A stretch of 64,000 bases of DNA. Source: Modestobacter excelsi (GTDB taxonomy: Bacteria; Actinomycetota; Actinomycetes; Mycobacteriales; Geodermatophilaceae). The notes beneath the pieces were generated by a model. It was not told the DNA's origin. It saw nothing but the letters and a program-made list of their open reading frames with translations, and made no database searches. Shown in pieces: positions 26,258 through 34,374 of this stretch. Numbering within the stretch: the first letter of the stretch is position 1; each line of letters opens with the position of its first letter. The stretch is taken from assembly GCF_005930495.1 (NCBI RefSeq), contig NZ_SJEX01000003.1:82454-146453 (forward strand), written 5' to 3'. The position numbers and the translations under genes were made by a program.

Positions 26258-27172
26258 GTGGACGGGGACCGCGGCGCGACGACGACGAACGGCGCCCCCA
26301 CGGCCGAGCACCTGAGCGGCTACCGCGCGGCGGTCGACGCGGTCGTGCAGCACCTCGGGGGTCTGCCGGCCGGCCAGGCGCCCCCGGCGGGTGCGGTGCT
26401 GGCGGTCGCCGCCGACCTACCGGCGGTGCGCGTCCTCCTGGACCGCCTGCCGGAGGGCGCGGAGGGCGCACTCGCGCGGATCGAACGCGACGTGCTCGCC
26501 TTCCGGTCCAGCGCCCGCTCCAACGCCTCGACACCGGCGACCCTGCTCAAGATCCTCCTGCTGCACCAGGTGGACGTCGTCTGGTGGTCCTCGGTCGCGC
26601 CCTTCCCCGATGACCGTGCCGTCCTGGGCTCTCCGGAGCTGACCTCCCTGCGCCTGCTCCAGCAGCAGCACCGCCTGCCCTTCTCCTTCCGGGTCGGTGC
26701 GACGGGGCTGGCCGGTCGCGCCCGGAACTACGCGGTCCGCCGGTGCGCGCCCGGCCGTGAGCCGCAGTCCTCCGGCTTGAGCTTCCCGCTGGCGCGACCG
26801 GCGATGATCGGTCTGCTGACCGAGATCGCGACGTCCTTCGCCCAGGCCGCTGGAGGATGGAGCCGGGGCCTGTGGGTGAACTGCATCGTGCGCAGCAACC
26901 AGGGCCAGCAGCGGCTCAGGGACCTCGGCTACTCCGCCTTCCTCCCCAGCGCGCACTGCGTCGGGTACGCCGCGGACCTCGAGATGACCTGGCTCCGCCG
27001 CAACGGGGTCGCCGCACCGCTGCAGCAGGTCCTGACCGGCTACCGGGACGCGGGGGTGCTCAACGTGATCGACGAGGGCCAGGCCTGGCACCTGTGCCTC
27101 AACCCGGCATGGGTGGGCCGGTACGAGGCCGCGGCCCAGCCCCTGCTGACCGCGGTCGGTCAGGCGCGCTGA
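26258..27172 (+). CDS. M15-peptidase-like protein (DUF5715-type)
   Basis: This 304-residue protein is not firmly assigned. The C-terminal part holds SAHCVGYAADLEM and, further on, DEGQAWHLCLNP. This reproduces the S-x-H-x-x-G-x-A-x-D and E-x(n)-W-H zinc/base pattern of M15 D-Ala-D-Ala carboxypeptidases, in a DUF5715-like context (VRSNQGQQRLRDLGY before it). The N-terminal 100 residues are unrelated and there is no signal peptide, so the protein should be cytoplasmic, unlike most M15 enzymes. Its stop overlaps the ATG of the asparagine-synthetase homologue by one base (TGATG), so the two products probably act together. Peptidase or ligase-partner activity is inference. Confidence 0.6.
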   Translation: MDGDRGATTTNGAPTAEHLSGYRAAVDAVVQHLGGLPAGQAPPAGAVLAVAADLPAVRVLLDRLPEGAEGALARIERDVLAFRSSARSNASTPATLLKILLLHQVDVVWWSSVAPFPDDRAVLGSPELTSLRLLQQQHRLPFSFRVGATGLAGRARNYAVRRCAPGREPQSSGLSFPLARPAMIGLLTEIATSFAQAAGGWSRGLWVNCIVRSNQGQQRLRDLGYSAFLPSAHCVGYAADLEMTWLRRNGVAAPLQQVLTGYRDAGVLNVIDEGQAWHLCLNPAWVGRYEAAAQPLLTAVGQAR

Positions 27173-28785
27173 TGTGCGGGATCGCCGTGCTCCTCGGCCC
27201 GGGCGCCGCGAGCCGGCGTGCGGTGTTCGACACGATGCTGGCCGCCGTGTCCGCCCGCGGTGAGGTCGACGAGGTCCTGTGCGACGAGGAGGCCCTGCTC
27301 GGCACCGCCCGGCTGCGCATCGTGGACCGGGACCGGGCCGTCCAGCCGTGGACGTCCGGTGACGGCAGGTGGGCGCTGACCTTCAACGGTGAGGTGTTCA
27401 ACCACGCCGAGCTGCGTGCCCGGCTGCACGCGGACGGCCGCCGCACCCGGTCGACCAGTGACACGGAGGTCGTCCTGGAGGCCGTCCTCGCCTGGGGGGA
27501 GGACGCGCTGAGGCACATGCGCGGCGAGTTCGCCTTCGCCGTCGTCGAGCGCGGCACCCGCCGGGTGTTCCTGGCCCGCGACCCGGCCGGGGTCAAACCC
27601 CTGTACTGGGCGAGCGCGGCCGGACGCCTGCACATCGCCTCGGAGATCAAGGCCCTGGTGCCGCTCGGCACCGAGGTCCACGAGGTCCCGCCCGGGCACT
27701 GCGGCTGGGCCGATCCGGACACGGCCCCGGACCTGCACCCCTACGTCGACCTGTACCGCCTGGGCGAGGGGCGGCCGGTCCTCGCCGACGTGGAGGAAGC
27801 CGCAGCCGCGCTCCGGGAGACCTTCACCGACGCCGTCCGGATCCGGGTGGACACCGACCTGCGCGTCGGTGTCGTGCTCTCCGGCGGGCTGGACAGCTCC
27901 CTCACCCTGGTGGAGGTCCGCGCGCTGCACCCGGACTGCGTCGCCTTCACCGTGGGGGTCGAGGGCAGTGCGGACCTGGCGTACGCCCGACGGCTCACCG
28001 CCGATCTCGGGGTGGAGCACGTCGTGGTCCCCGTCCGACCCCGCGAGCTGCGGCGTCGCGACGTCCGTGAGGCGATGAGGGTCTCGGAGCTCACCGAGTA
28101 CGGGGACATCATCAACGCCGTCGTCTCCCAGCGCCTCTTCGCCGCCGTGCACGAGGCCGGCGTCAAGGTGGTGCTGACCGGGGACGGGTCGGACGAGCTG
28201 TTCGGGGGCTACGAGATGTACCGCCGGATCGCCCCGGAGGACGCCCGCCGGCTCTTCCTGCACAAGATCCGCTACCTGAGCCACACCGAGCTCCAGCGGG
28301 TGGACCGGACCTCGATGAGCCACCGGGTCGAGGCCCGGGTGCCGTTCCTCGACCTGGCGATGCTCGACCTCGCGATGCGCATACCGCAGGAGCTCAAGCA
28401 GCGGGACGGCTACGAGAAGTGGATCCTGCGGCACGCCTTCTCCGATGTCCTCCCCGGCTACGTGACGGCGCGGCACAAGGACCCGATGTCGCACTCCAGC
28501 GGGCTCCACGAACGGATCCGCCTGTTCCGGCCGCTGTTCCCGGCCATGTACCGCAGCCACGGGTACCAGTGCTTCGCACCGCTGCAGCGCGACTTCTCCG
28601 AGGTCCTCAAGGACCACGGCTACGACCTGGACGCCGCCGTGGCAGCAGCCCGGCCCGCCCGGGACCTCACGCTCGCCGAACATGGCCGGGACTTCGCCGG
28701 GGCCGTCCGCTGGAACCTCACCGACCTGGTCCGCCGCCGCGGAGCGGCTCTTCCTCCGGGCCTTCCCGAGGCGGCACCGGGCTAG
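27172..28785 (+). CDS. Asparagine synthetase-like glutamine-dependent amidotransferase
   Basis: The 537-residue, two-domain protein starts MCGIAVLLGPG with the nucleophile Cys2 of a class II (Ntn) glutaminase domain, and has FNGEVFNHAELR in the same domain. The synthetase domain carries the PPi-loop SGGLDSS (Ser237 onward) and TGDGSDELFGGYEMY. It could make asparagine, or, like other AsnB homologues in secondary metabolism, form another amide or lactam. One-base overlap with the upstream M15-like gene argues for a dedicated role. The acyltransferase gene follows within about 70 bp. Ends in TAG. Confidence 0.87.
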   Translation: MCGIAVLLGPGAASRRAVFDTMLAAVSARGEVDEVLCDEEALLGTARLRIVDRDRAVQPWTSGDGRWALTFNGEVFNHAELRARLHADGRRTRSTSDTEVVLEAVLAWGEDALRHMRGEFAFAVVERGTRRVFLARDPAGVKPLYWASAAGRLHIASEIKALVPLGTEVHEVPPGHCGWADPDTAPDLHPYVDLYRLGEGRPVLADVEEAAAALRETFTDAVRIRVDTDLRVGVVLSGGLDSSLTLVEVRALHPDCVAFTVGVEGSADLAYARRLTADLGVEHVVVPVRPRELRRRDVREAMRVSELTEYGDIINAVVSQRLFAAVHEAGVKVVLTGDGSDELFGGYEMYRRIAPEDARRLFLHKIRYLSHTELQRVDRTSMSHRVEARVPFLDLAMLDLAMRIPQELKQRDGYEKWILRHAFSDVLPGYVTARHKDPMSHSSGLHERIRLFRPLFPAMYRSHGYQCFAPLQRDFSEVLKDHGYDLDAAVAAARPARDLTLAEHGRDFAGAVRWNLTDLVRRRGAALPPGLPEAAPG

Positions 28786-28855
28786 CAGGCCGGGCTCCCG
28801 GCGAGCACGGGTCGGCGTGCTTGCCTCGACGGCACCGGAGCGGGACGCTGCTGCC

Positions 28856-30127
28856 GTGCAGGTCCCGCTGACCGCCGAGGACCGGACGATCCTCGCCCTG
28901 GAAGGGCCGCACCTCGTTGGGCACACGGCCACGGTGGTCCACCTGCCGGACGGCGCGCCCGGTCTCGAGGAGCTCCGCGAGGCGGTCAGCCACCGGCTGC
29001 CCGGGGCTCCGCGGCTGACCTGGCGGCTGGGCGGCACGGCCGGGGAGCCGGCGTGGTGCCCGGACGGGACGCTGGACGTGGCGGCGCACGTCCGGTCGGC
29101 CACCCCGGCCGCCCCGCTGGACCCGGCCGGGCTGCGCAAGGAGCTGGCCCGGCTGTTCGGTGAGCACCTCGACCGGACCCGGCCGCTGTGGCGGATGGAC
29201 CTCGTCGGCCCGTTGGCAGCTGGTGGAGCGGTCCTGGTGTGGCGGGTCCACCACGCGCTGGCCGACGGCGGCACGGTGATGCGGCTGGCCGACGGCGTGC
29301 TGTGGGACCCGGCGCCGGAGACCGGCGGGCGCAGCACCGGGGCCGCCCGGCCGGGGACGTCCGCGGCCGACCTCCACCGGCCCTCGCTGGCCGGCGTGCT
29401 GACCGGGGAGCTCGTCCCCGGCCTGCGGCGCTCCCCGTTCGACGCGGCCATCGGCCGCGAGCGGGACGTCGCCCTCGCCACCGCACCGGTGTCCGCCCTG
29501 CGCGAGGCCGCCCGCGGGGTCGCCGGCGCGACGGTGAACGACGCCGTGCTCGCGGTGGTGGCCGGTGCGCTGCGCCGGTGGCTGGAGCACCGGCACGGAC
29601 CGCTGTCCGGGCTGCGGGTCAAGGTGCCGGTGACCCTGCACCACGACGGCGACCAGGCCGGGAACCGCGATTCCTGGTTCCGGGTCGACCTGCCGGTGGA
29701 CGAGCCGGACCCTCTGGCACGGCTGGCGGCCGTCCGCCGGGAGACGGCCCAGCGCAAGGCCCGCCACGACGCCGAGCAGCTCGACGAGCTGATGGCCCGG
29801 ATGGCCCGCCACTCGCCGCGGCTGGCGGAGTGGTCGCAGCGACTGCAGCGCAGTGGGCGGTCCTTCGCACTCAACGTGTCCAACGTGCGCGGTCCCGACC
29901 GGCCGGTCACCGTGCTGGGCGCGCCCGTCGCCGCCGTCCAGCCCCTGGTGGAGGTCGCCGAGCACCACGCGCTGCGGGTGGCGGTGCTGTCCGTCGGCGA
30001 CCGGCTGGGTTTCGGACTGGTCGCGGACCCCTCGGTCGTCGGGGAGCTCGACGTGCTGGCCGGCGCCGTGGAGGAGGCGGCCACCGAACTGCAGCTCGCC
30101 GGACAGGAGGACGCGCTTCCGGGCTGA
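28856..30127 (+). CDS. Wax ester synthase/diacylglycerol acyltransferase (WS/DGAT) family protein
   Basis: This protein of about 423 residues has the family catalytic motif HHALADG (in WRVHHALADGGTVMRL), a N-terminal segment MDLVGPLAAGGAVL before it, and the C-terminal SNVRGPDRPVTVLG block (the conserved N-V-R/PGP region). WS/DGAT enzymes esterify acyl-CoA to fatty alcohols or diacylglycerol and make storage lipid in mycobacteria and related genera. GTG 28856 is a sensible start; GTG 28817 is in frame and would add 13 residues. It follows the asparagine-synthetase homologue closely on the same strand and ends near the convergent MerB-like gene. Substrates are unknown. Confidence 0.78.
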   Translation: MQVPLTAEDRTILALEGPHLVGHTATVVHLPDGAPGLEELREAVSHRLPGAPRLTWRLGGTAGEPAWCPDGTLDVAAHVRSATPAAPLDPAGLRKELARLFGEHLDRTRPLWRMDLVGPLAAGGAVLVWRVHHALADGGTVMRLADGVLWDPAPETGGRSTGAARPGTSAADLHRPSLAGVLTGELVPGLRRSPFDAAIGRERDVALATAPVSALREAARGVAGATVNDAVLAVVAGALRRWLEHRHGPLSGLRVKVPVTLHHDGDQAGNRDSWFRVDLPVDEPDPLARLAAVRRETAQRKARHDAEQLDELMARMARHSPRLAEWSQRLQRSGRSFALNVSNVRGPDRPVTVLGAPVAAVQPLVEVAEHHALRVAVLSVGDRLGFGLVADPSVVGELDVLAGAVEEAATELQLAGQEDALPG

Positions 30128-30148: not shown

Positions 30149-30808
30149 TCAGCCGAGCTGCCAGAACCCACCGACCAACCCCAGGCCCTCCAGGACGGCC
30201 TGGTTCTGCTCGCGGGAGTGGGGCGTCCACCCAGGGTCGAGGCGGTCGCCCCACCAGCCCCGCGCAAGGGCGTTCAGCGTGGTCACGGGCAGCATCGCCC
30301 CGGGGGACCGGGAGCCCAGCCAGCGGTCGACGTGCTCCTCCGACCGGAAGAGGTTCATCGTGCTCTAGGTGAAGGCGATGTCGTCCCACCACCGCTGCGC
30401 AGGGACCAGGCAGTGGAAGACGAGGGACGGCTGGTCCAGGTGCTGGCCCTGGACGGTGATCGCAAGTGGCTCACCGCAATCGGGGCAGGACGCCCGGACC
30501 TGCCCGTCGGTGTCCAGCGCAGCGCAGATCCCGAAGGCGTCCCAGGCGCAGTTCGCGTACCACCAGCGGCCGTGGGCCAGCACCCGGTACGCCGTGGGGA
30601 CGGCGGAGAAGGGGTTGGCCATGCGGATCTCCGTCCCCTCGGCGTCGAGGACGAGGGCGTGGCCGTCGTGCAGACGGCGCCATCCCGCCAGCACGTCGAC
30701 GGCCGTCGAGCCCGTCGAGGCGGCGACCTCCTCCGCCGACGGCGCCCGACCGAGGGCGACGAACATGCCGTAGGTCGTGTTGCGCAGGGAGACGTCGGCG
30801 GGGTCCAT
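30149..30808 (-). CDS. MerB-like alkylmercury lyase homologue with in-frame UAG, candidate selenoprotein
   Basis: Two reading frames (30365-30808, 147 codons; and the codons after 30365 to 30149) join in frame through one TAG at 30365-30367. Together they encode one protein of about 219 residues, close to MerB (about 212). The first part has a winged-helix N-terminus and NCAWDAF, matching MerB catalytic Cys96 and Asp99 (here Cys87 and Asp90). The UAG is codon 148, 61 residues after Cys87; in MerB the second catalytic Cys159 lies 63 after Cys96. After the UAG, STMNLFRSEEHVDRW and GDRLDPGW continue the family. A hairpin with a GGUC loop follows at the right distance. I infer selenocysteine at residue 148. 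A plain nonsense mutation, giving two fragments, is the alternative. CPDCGEP (108-114) adds a CxxC. Confidence 0.78.
30335..30367 (-). promoter_or_regulatory. SECIS-like hairpin following the UAG codon
   Basis: On the mRNA, counting the U of UAG (30367) as 1, CUCUUCC (16-22) pairs fully with GGAGGAG (27-33), one pair being G-U, closing a GGUC tetraloop at 23-26. The E. coli fdhF SECIS presents GGUC at 22-25 after its UGA, so position and loop sequence nearly coincide. A weak lower helix (CGA 8-10 with UCG 38-40) is also possible. It lies inside the coding region, as bacterial SECIS elements do. Confidence 0.72.
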
Positions 30809-32877: not shown

Positions 32878-34374
32878 TCACCGACCAACTGCTCGGCGGC
32901 CGAGGAGGTGGGTGGACGAGCCCGTGATCGCCGAGAGGAAGTGGGGCCCGCTCAGGGTGGCGAGCTCGGTGTCCTCGACGGCACGCACGGTCGCCGTCCG
33001 CGGCACCGCCCGGAGCAGCGCGATCTCGCCGAAGGCCTCGCCGGGACCCATCCGGCGGATCTCTCGGTCGTCGTCGAGGACGGCCACCCGGCCGGACTGG
33101 ATGACGTAGAACCCGTCGCCGGGGTCACCCTGCCGGAACACGTCGGTCTGCGCCGGGACACGTGACCTGTCCAGCCGCTGCGCCAGGCTCTCGATGACCG
33201 GGACGGGCAGGAGCCGGAACATGCCGACCCGGCGCAGCAGCACGATCCGGTCCTTCCGCACGCCGATGTCCGCATCGATCGCCCGGAGGCCGGCCCAGCG
33301 CGCCATGACCACCACCGGGAGGATGCCGCCGGTGACGACGAGCGCAGCGGTGTCGCCCAGCACAGCGAGGAGGAACGGGATCGCCAGCGAGCCGAGCGCC
33401 ACCGCGAGCGAGAAGACCGCCTCGGTCAGGGCGAGCACGCGAGCCAGCGTCTGATCGGGGACGAGCCGCTGCAGCAGCGTGAACCCGGTGACGTCGACGA
33501 GCGCGTTGGCGGCGCCGATGACCACGAAGGCGCCGACTGCCACGGGGCTGCCCGTCAGCAGGCCGATGAGGACGATCGGCACACCCCACAGCGCGATCCC
33601 GGCACCGAAGAGCGTGCCGAGCCGGGCGCTCCCCGCGGCGCCGATCGACGCCATCGCCGCCGCGAACCCGCCGACCCCGAACGCCGCCCAGAGGACCCCG
33701 ACCCCCGGGCGGCCCAGGTCGGTGACCTGCACGGCCACCACCACGGCCAGCACGGTGAGCGCGCCGCGGACCAGGCACTGCGCGCCGCCCAGCACGATGA
33801 CCTCGAGCGCCCGGCGGCGTCGGCGCAGCTCGCGCAGGCCCTCGACCACGTCGGCGACCACCCCGACCCGGCCGGCCGGCCCGTCGGACGCGGTGCGGCG
33901 GGGCGACTCGTACCGCAGCCCGGCAGCGAGCACGCCGGCGGCACCGGCGAGCAGGGCCACCGCGGCGAACGCGGCCGCCGGGTCGTACGCCGCAAGCAGC
34001 GCGGCGGCGGCGAGGGGGCCGGCCAGCCCCGCCGCCCCGTCGAGGATGGCCCGGACCGCGTTCACCCCGGTCAGCTCGTCGGGGGTGGTGCACAGGGTGG
34101 GGAACAGGGCGGCGAGGACCGGCCGGTAGGCGGCATGGCAGACCGTCGACAGGGTCAGCAACGTGTAGACCACGGCCGGCTGTGCGGCGGCCACCGCCGC
34201 TCCCGCTGCGGTGGCCGCACGGAGCGTGCACGCGATGACGAGCAGTCGGCGGCGCGAGACGCGGTCGGCCAGCGCGCCCAGCCAGGGGAGCGCCACCGTC
34301 GCCGGCAGCACTCGCAGGAACCCGACCAGGCCCACGCCGGCCGCGCCGTTCTCGTCGAAGGCGTACACCGTCAT
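32878..34374 (-). CDS. MFS transporter with C-terminal cyclic-nucleotide-binding domain
   Basis: Most of the protein is a major facilitator fold with about 11-12 helices and the loop signature LGALADRVSRRRLL. The last 120 residues form a cNMP-binding domain (VFRQGDPGDGFYVIQSGRVAV and GEAFGEIALLRAVPRTATVRA, including the phosphate-binding cassette). Binding of cAMP or a similar ligand may gate transport. The first ATG is at 34374, yet the frame upstream to 34464 still encodes family sequence (RNRNLRLAQLSSLLAWTGEF), and no ATG, GTG or TTG lies between the TGA at 34465-34467 and 34374. The true N-terminus is therefore in another frame, and a one-base frameshift is likely near 34450-34465. Confidence 0.75.
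   Translation of the reverse strand: MTVYAFDENGAAGVGLVGFLRVLPATVALPWLGALADRVSRRRLLVIACTLRAATAAGAAVAAAQPAVVYTLLTLSTVCHAAYRPVLAALFPTLCTTPDELTGVNAVRAILDGAAGLAGPLAAAALLAAYDPAAAFAAVALLAGAAGVLAAGLRYESPRRTASDGPAGRVGVVADVVEGLRELRRRRRALEVIVLGGAQCLVRGALTVLAVVVAVQVTDLGRPGVGVLWAAFGVGGFAAAMASIGAAGSARLGTLFGAGIALWGVPIVLIGLLTGSPVAVGAFVVIGAANALVDVTGFTLLQRLVPDQTLARVLALTEAVFSLAVALGSLAIPFLLAVLGDTAALVVTGGILPVVVMARWAGLRAIDADIGVRKDRIVLLRRVGMFRLLPVPVIESLAQRLDRSRVPAQTDVFRQGDPGDGFYVIQSGRVAVLDDDREIRRMGPGEAFGEIALLRAVPRTATVRAVEDTELATLSGPHFLSAITGSSTHLLGRRAVGR

Follow-up and report, generated by a model that had tools for sequence, protein, structure and literature searches.

What becomes of a reading frame of the MerB family that is interrupted by a UAG codon exactly where MerB carries its second catalytic cysteine? 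The question is raised by a gene on the minus strand (30149..30808) of a window of Modestobacter excelsi DNA, meaning here the whole stretch of 64,000 nt that was analysed (contig NZ_SJEX01000003.1, assembly GCF_005930495.1), within which all gene coordinates given below are positions; the genome it belongs to comprises 5.26 Mb in 178 contigs, with a completeness of 100. The answer that we favour, with a probability of roughly 0.86 and on the basis of sequence comparisons and a structural model, is that in this member of the MerB family UAG replaces the codon of the second catalytic Cys and is predicted to be read as selenocysteine (Sec) by a tRNASec with anticodon CUA, resulting in a putative Cys-Asp-Sec site for organometals.

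Between 30808 and 30149, a single TAG (30367..30365) is the sole interruption of the MerB-family frame, which otherwise runs through 219 residues to a TGA stop at 30151-30149. The starts of the orthologues agree with the ATG at 30808, from which the TAG is codon 148, located 61 codons behind Cys87 (30548..30550) in the motif NCAWD. The match to the Pfam MerB family (PF03243) spans the TAG, covering residues 67-186 with 96.7 bits (gathering score 27) and an E value of 1.3e-27, and the gathering score is exceeded by 49/49 members of the lineage. The protein is matched in 11 of 112 Geodermatophilaceae genomes, in six of them (the window included) nearly at full length; the other five full-length orthologues are 69-73% identical to the window's protein and codon 148 is TAG in every one of the six, the gene of G004 having a further TAG upstream of its likely start. 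Since five other close orthologues carry TAG at the same codon, a chance TAG is excluded. The 71 codons and stop behind it (30149..30364) are conserved in the orthologues and absent from the database copies, and for all 15 pairs of close UAG orthologues the ratio of nonsynonymous to synonymous substitution rates (dN/dS) is 0.08-0.49 behind the TAG and 0.14-0.61 before it, values in which dS behind the codon is slightly lowered by a hairpin discussed below. To judge from these ratios, the part behind the TAG is constrained like the part before it. The preliminary description of this locus had one TAG joining two frames into a full-length MerB-like protein, at codon 148 and 61 residues past the Cys of NCAWD, with family-like codons downstream, and the frame, both positions, the Pfam match across the TAG and the constraint behind it bear this out.

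Can this host insert Sec at a UAG codon? The window itself holds no tRNA according to ARAGORN and no RNA family according to Rfam, and the Sec machinery sits on another contig, where a tRNA-Sec gene scoring 66.9 bits and bearing the anticodon CTA has selD on one side, encoded on the opposite strand, and selA and then selB on the other. SelA, SelB and SelD (421.1, 280.2 and 374.5 bits) all pass their NCBIfam cut-offs (267.9, 242.25 and 125, respectively), so that the selA, selB, selD and CUA tRNASec on which the preliminary description had made its proposal depend are all present. A formate dehydrogenase-like gene of the same genome, matched piecewise and below the cut-off of that family, also contains a UAG, in NQARI-UAG-HSSTVPGLG, which we take to be the Sec site of formate dehydrogenase; GGTC follows this UAG as well, with 18 bases between, versus 19 in the MerB-like gene. 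UAG-directed Sec in Geodermatophilaceae was reportedly described by Mukai et al. in 2016, and tRNASec was found in 108 of the 112 family genomes. Because hits to the Rfam tRNA-Sec model include tRNA-Ser and tRNA-Leu (L002-L005; L189), anticodons were read individually, namely in the 30 best-scoring of the 108 family loci (not a random sample), in the window's genome and in the five other UAG hosts. The 30 best-scoring loci comprise 22 with CTA and eight with TCA, seven of the latter from three genera (g6, g7 and g8; L018-L023 and L026) and one being a second copy in G059. As TCA occurs in loci from those three genera and CTA in 22 loci from other genera, the family tree can be used to locate the anticodon switch. 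The second tRNASec of G059 (L017, G059:C17, 1173-1263), which stands alongside the CTA one of that genome, is an observation in its own right: at a distance of some 300 bases there is a carboxymuconolactone decarboxylase-like gene (1579-2157; Pfam CMD 28.2 bits versus 23) with an in-frame TGA in C-F-Y-TGA, and the two together may be a portable UGA-Sec module inside a UAG-Sec host.

Codon 148 was also compared across relatives. In a named genome collection, 67 loci match the protein; 65 of them reach codon 148 (L121 and L123 stop short of it), with TAG in four, from Geodermatophilus and Blastococcus, and TGA in the remaining 61, from records (mostly metagenome-assembled genomes) of Actinomycetota, Chloroflexota, Acidobacteriota and Thermomicrobiota, some of these loci sharing a genome (L060 with L085, L067 with L086). 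Of 394 genomes of the class that were scanned, 17 had matches, namely the window's genome, a genome in which both of two copies have TGA, and genomes with distant homologues. A Cys codon (TGC or TGT) is found at the position in 12 clearly aligned distant homologues, 11 of them from the class scan and one (L012, with 36% identity) from the 112 family genomes, whose remaining four matches are weak or partial. In clearly alignable homologues the codon is therefore TAG, TGA or one for Cys, and nothing else; this reading covered the listed database hits, with L142 and L013-L015 (the latter matching in the front half only) set aside. L138, L139, L140, L143 and L016, inspected by eye only, have a Cys near the site, L137 is poorly aligned and was left uncounted, and the TGA codons of L137 and L140 are ordinary gene ends. 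As a side note on copy number, Nocardioides sp. zg-1230 holds two UGA-form copies (L067 and L086) on different scaffolds, whose proteins are identical in the tree.

Codon and anticodon vary together. A tRNASec search (E value up to 1e-9) took as inputs 44 of the 67 named loci plus nine class-search loci, G219 and G507 being the same record. In the 44 named genomes, tRNASec was found in 4/4 hosts of the TAG form and in 31/40 hosts of the TGA form, and all 31 of the latter have the anticodon TCA, whereas the tRNASec of all six UAG-gene hosts of the family has CTA; codon and anticodon thus agree in 6/6 UAG and 31/31 UGA hosts for which both were read. Among eight hosts of Cys homologues, the same search gave four with and four without a tRNASec. 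In the tree, three long Cys proteins are nested within the Sec clade, and the UAG rows are split in two by three intervening UGA rows; a single UAG clade is not rejected by the approximately unbiased test (p 0.305), on account of which two independent switches to UAG are not claimed. In the protein database there are at least 7978 relatives at 1e-10, and of the best 120 of these (P0002-P0121) 116 terminate precisely where the Sec would be, several of them under names such as organomercurial lyase, while the four that continue all have Cys there. The databases hold these 116, in other words, as truncated proteins.

A bacterial Sec codon is predicted here to be accompanied by a selenocysteine insertion sequence (SECIS), and a candidate hairpin lies 12 bases behind the UAG (30335..30352, minus strand), with seven pairs and a 4-base GGUC loop (30342..30345). 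Over 66 distinct sequences, 92.2% of the cells are paired, versus 49-65% with one side slid. When the loci were recoded synonymously with the protein unchanged (n=63, L097 being skipped and one duplicate merged), a loop of GGTC or AGTC was expected in 14.7 and observed in 62/63, and at least six hairpin pairs were expected in 24.8 and observed in 60/63. A codon-uniformity test over 90 conserved amino-acid columns and 31 rows found five columns exceeding expectation at p<0.001, of which three (Leu153, Arg155 and Ser156, with 97-100% of one codon) belong to the hairpin and the others are at 23 and 164. In 12/12 Cys homologues read, no more than five of the seven pairs are present and the loop is neither GGTC nor AGTC. 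Judging from this codon usage, the predicted hairpin is under strong synonymous constraint, pointing to selection beyond the protein.

What would a Sec residue at this position do? Codon 148 aligns with MerB Cys159, as the preliminary description had placed it, and the equivalents of Cys96 and Asp99 are kept as Cys87 and Asp90 (30539..30541); counting Sec as Cys, the three catalytic positions are kept in 49/49 members. The predicted model has the MerB fold, with 18-23% identity to solved MerB structures. On this evidence the protein likely works like MerB, and the following course of events can be proposed. The tRNASec would be charged with Ser, which SelA, using selenophosphate from SelD, would convert to Sec; SelB would bind the GGUC-loop hairpin just past the UAG and deliver the Sec-tRNA to the ribosome, and translation would then go on to add 71 further residues. 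In the resulting protein, Cys87-Asp90-Sec148 would stand where MerB has Cys96-Asp99-Cys159; at this site the metal of an organometallic compound would be bound by the thiolate and the selenolate, with the Asp as proton donor for cleavage of the carbon-metal bond.

Several results weigh against this proposal, in its part concerning the hairpin, the tRNA or the chemistry. Covariation in the hairpin is weak when compared to shuffles, as 38/500 of them reach its score and 152/500 its pair changes on both sides; the number of cells paired, reached by 18/500, is also a weak point, a clear double exchange is confined to one clade (L095, L097, L099 and L101), and the fold of the window's 71 bases alone is ordinary (z -0.67). 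At the threshold used, a tRNASec was missing from nine of the 40 genomes with the TGA form. The protein misses the equivalog cut-offs of MerB (PRK13239, 44.6 versus 193 bits; NF033555, 40.8 versus 200 bits), as do 10/10 other members scanned. Finally, the gene has no mer context, its neighbours in the window not being mer genes, and MerA at an E value of 1e-100 or below was found in only two of the six UAG hosts (G004 and G008, both over the cut-off) and not in the window's genome, MerA being over the cut-off in 22 of the 112 family genomes.

How else could the locus be explained? A recent pseudogene typically looks like this, with one in-frame stop and the gene intact in other respects, and a TAG may also be a sequencing error, but the same stop occurs in 6/6 species at about 70% identity, the sequence behind it is constrained and other phyla have TGA at the same codon; this candidate is already contradicted and can hardly be credited. 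The UAG might instead act mainly as a stop, with a functional product of 147 residues and a read-through that is minor or selenium-dependent. UAG ordinarily terminates translation, Sec insertion does not usually go to completion, and the database entries do end at this codon, though only through annotation; against this, the 71 residues behind it are conserved with dN/dS well below 1, homologues have a Cys codon there, and the 147-residue product would be devoid of a Cys159 equivalent, all of which makes such a use of the codon improbable. Still less probable is a decoding of the UAG as something other than Sec, be it pyrrolysine or the amino acid of a suppressor. ARAGORN does label the CTA tRNA as Pyl, but with the tRNA-Sec model that very tRNA reaches 66.9 bits, its neighbours are selD and selA-selB, PylS (TIGR02367) has no match in the window's genome, and the homologues have TGA or Cys at the position.

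The alternative that deserves most attention accepts the Sec and questions the chemistry: the protein might contain Sec and have the MerB fold but serve in metal binding, redox chemistry or some other capacity, and be no organometal lyase in the cell. The low identity to solved MerB structures, the curated cut-offs that are missed, the absence of shared neighbours in actinobacteria and the presence of MerA in only two of six hosts speak for it, and the conserved catalytic positions and the predicted MerB fold speak against it, so that we regard it as a minority view, albeit one with about a third of the weight. Clustering of neighbours, in which many clusters are shadow frames or close relatives, gave none common to five or more actinobacterial loci. 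Because four of the six UAG hosts have no strong MerA match, mercury may not be the substrate. The preliminary description had residue 148 as Sec in an organomercurial-lyase-type or related reaction; the predicted Sec has gained support from the tRNA, the sel genes and the codon exchange, and the lyase reaction is plausible, but for mercury specifically the gene context gives no support. A more far-reaching version of the Cys-Asp-Sec reading, which we hold only tentatively and as somewhat less than an even bet, is that a clade of MerB-fold organometal lyases in Actinomycetota, Chloroflexota and Acidobacteriota, mostly recorded as truncated at about 147 residues, would share the Cys-Asp-Sec triad, with UGA or UAG following the anticodon of the host, and would have as substrate some organometal or organometalloid, though not the mercury of mer operons.

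The surroundings of the gene add some separate observations. Its direct neighbours in the window, on the other strand, are genes for an asparagine synthase and a WS/DGAT acyltransferase, which belong to three successive plus-strand genes with overlapping frames (26258-30127: DUF5715, below its cut-off, then asparagine synthase and the WS/DGAT-type acyltransferase), possibly a small biosynthetic cluster. Farther on, at 32878-34374, a major facilitator domain and a cyclic-nucleotide-binding domain share one frame. In many Chloroflexota loci (L100-L122), the gene is flanked by frames that, by eye only, resemble HMG-CoA reductase and HMG-CoA synthase/thiolase. In two Geodermatophilaceae genomes, MerB-like frames without internal stops (L013, G029:C14; L015, G006:C3) lie directly beside merA, which means that mer-type loci exist apart from the Sec gene.

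If the Cys-Asp-Sec reading holds, a metal-handling enzyme would join the few proteins known with UAG-encoded Sec. One gene family whose Sec codon matches the host anticodon, in 6 UAG and 31 UGA hosts, would be a natural test of Sec codon reassignment, and the existence of Sec and Cys forms would make the role of selenium in carbon-metal cleavage directly testable. Furthermore, since annotation cuts a large protein set at the Sec codon, the environmental potential for MerB-type activity may be undercounted.

How does this lineage relate to systems already described? MerB and MerB2 (PDB 1s6l, 3f0o and 5c17) have the same fold, and the Cys96, Asp99 and Cys159 equivalents are found in the present protein, although in MerB2 the residue aligned with the Asp position is Ser; the present gene differs in its Sec codon for Cys159, in its 18-23% identity, in the residues past about 195, which fall outside most structural alignments, and in not lying, in the window, in a mer locus. 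A MerB-like selenoprotein is also on record: SaoL is a MerB-like organometallic lyase selenoprotein (NCBIfam NF040728; named in the review PMC13188914), and an alkylmercury lyase MerB-like selenoprotein is listed, citing earlier work, in the review PMC9312934. SaoL and the present lineage are both bacterial and of the MerB family with Sec (predicted in the latter), yet the SaoL cut-off is 140 bits and the window protein scores 45.4, with 11/11 members scanned at 30-53; the SaoL profile match ends at position 131-138 of 159, and the CU motif given for SaoL in PMC13188914 is absent, Thr preceding the Sec codon in 65/65 loci. As to a sao neighbourhood, no neighbours are shared among the actinobacterial loci, though no search was aimed at sao families. 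"MerB" and "alkylmercury" are absent from the main text of PMC2398784, PMC12013277 and PMC5029168, and the literature searched, to which supplements and the main SaoL work did not belong, contains no description of the present lineage, so that an earlier one is possible. UAG-directed Sec with a CUA tRNASec in Geodermatophilaceae, which the preliminary description took as established, is indeed in print, with formate dehydrogenase, a UGSC-motif protein and AhpC named in the section consulted (section 17 of PMC5330540) and no MerB-like protein among those of that section. The present gene shares with that system the bacterial family, the CUA tRNASec and the UAG codon, and its genome the formate dehydrogenase-like UAG gene as well. 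UAG-directed Sec in Geodermatophilaceae and a MerB-like selenoprotein are hence both known, and the present separate MerB-like lineage appears to be a new form.
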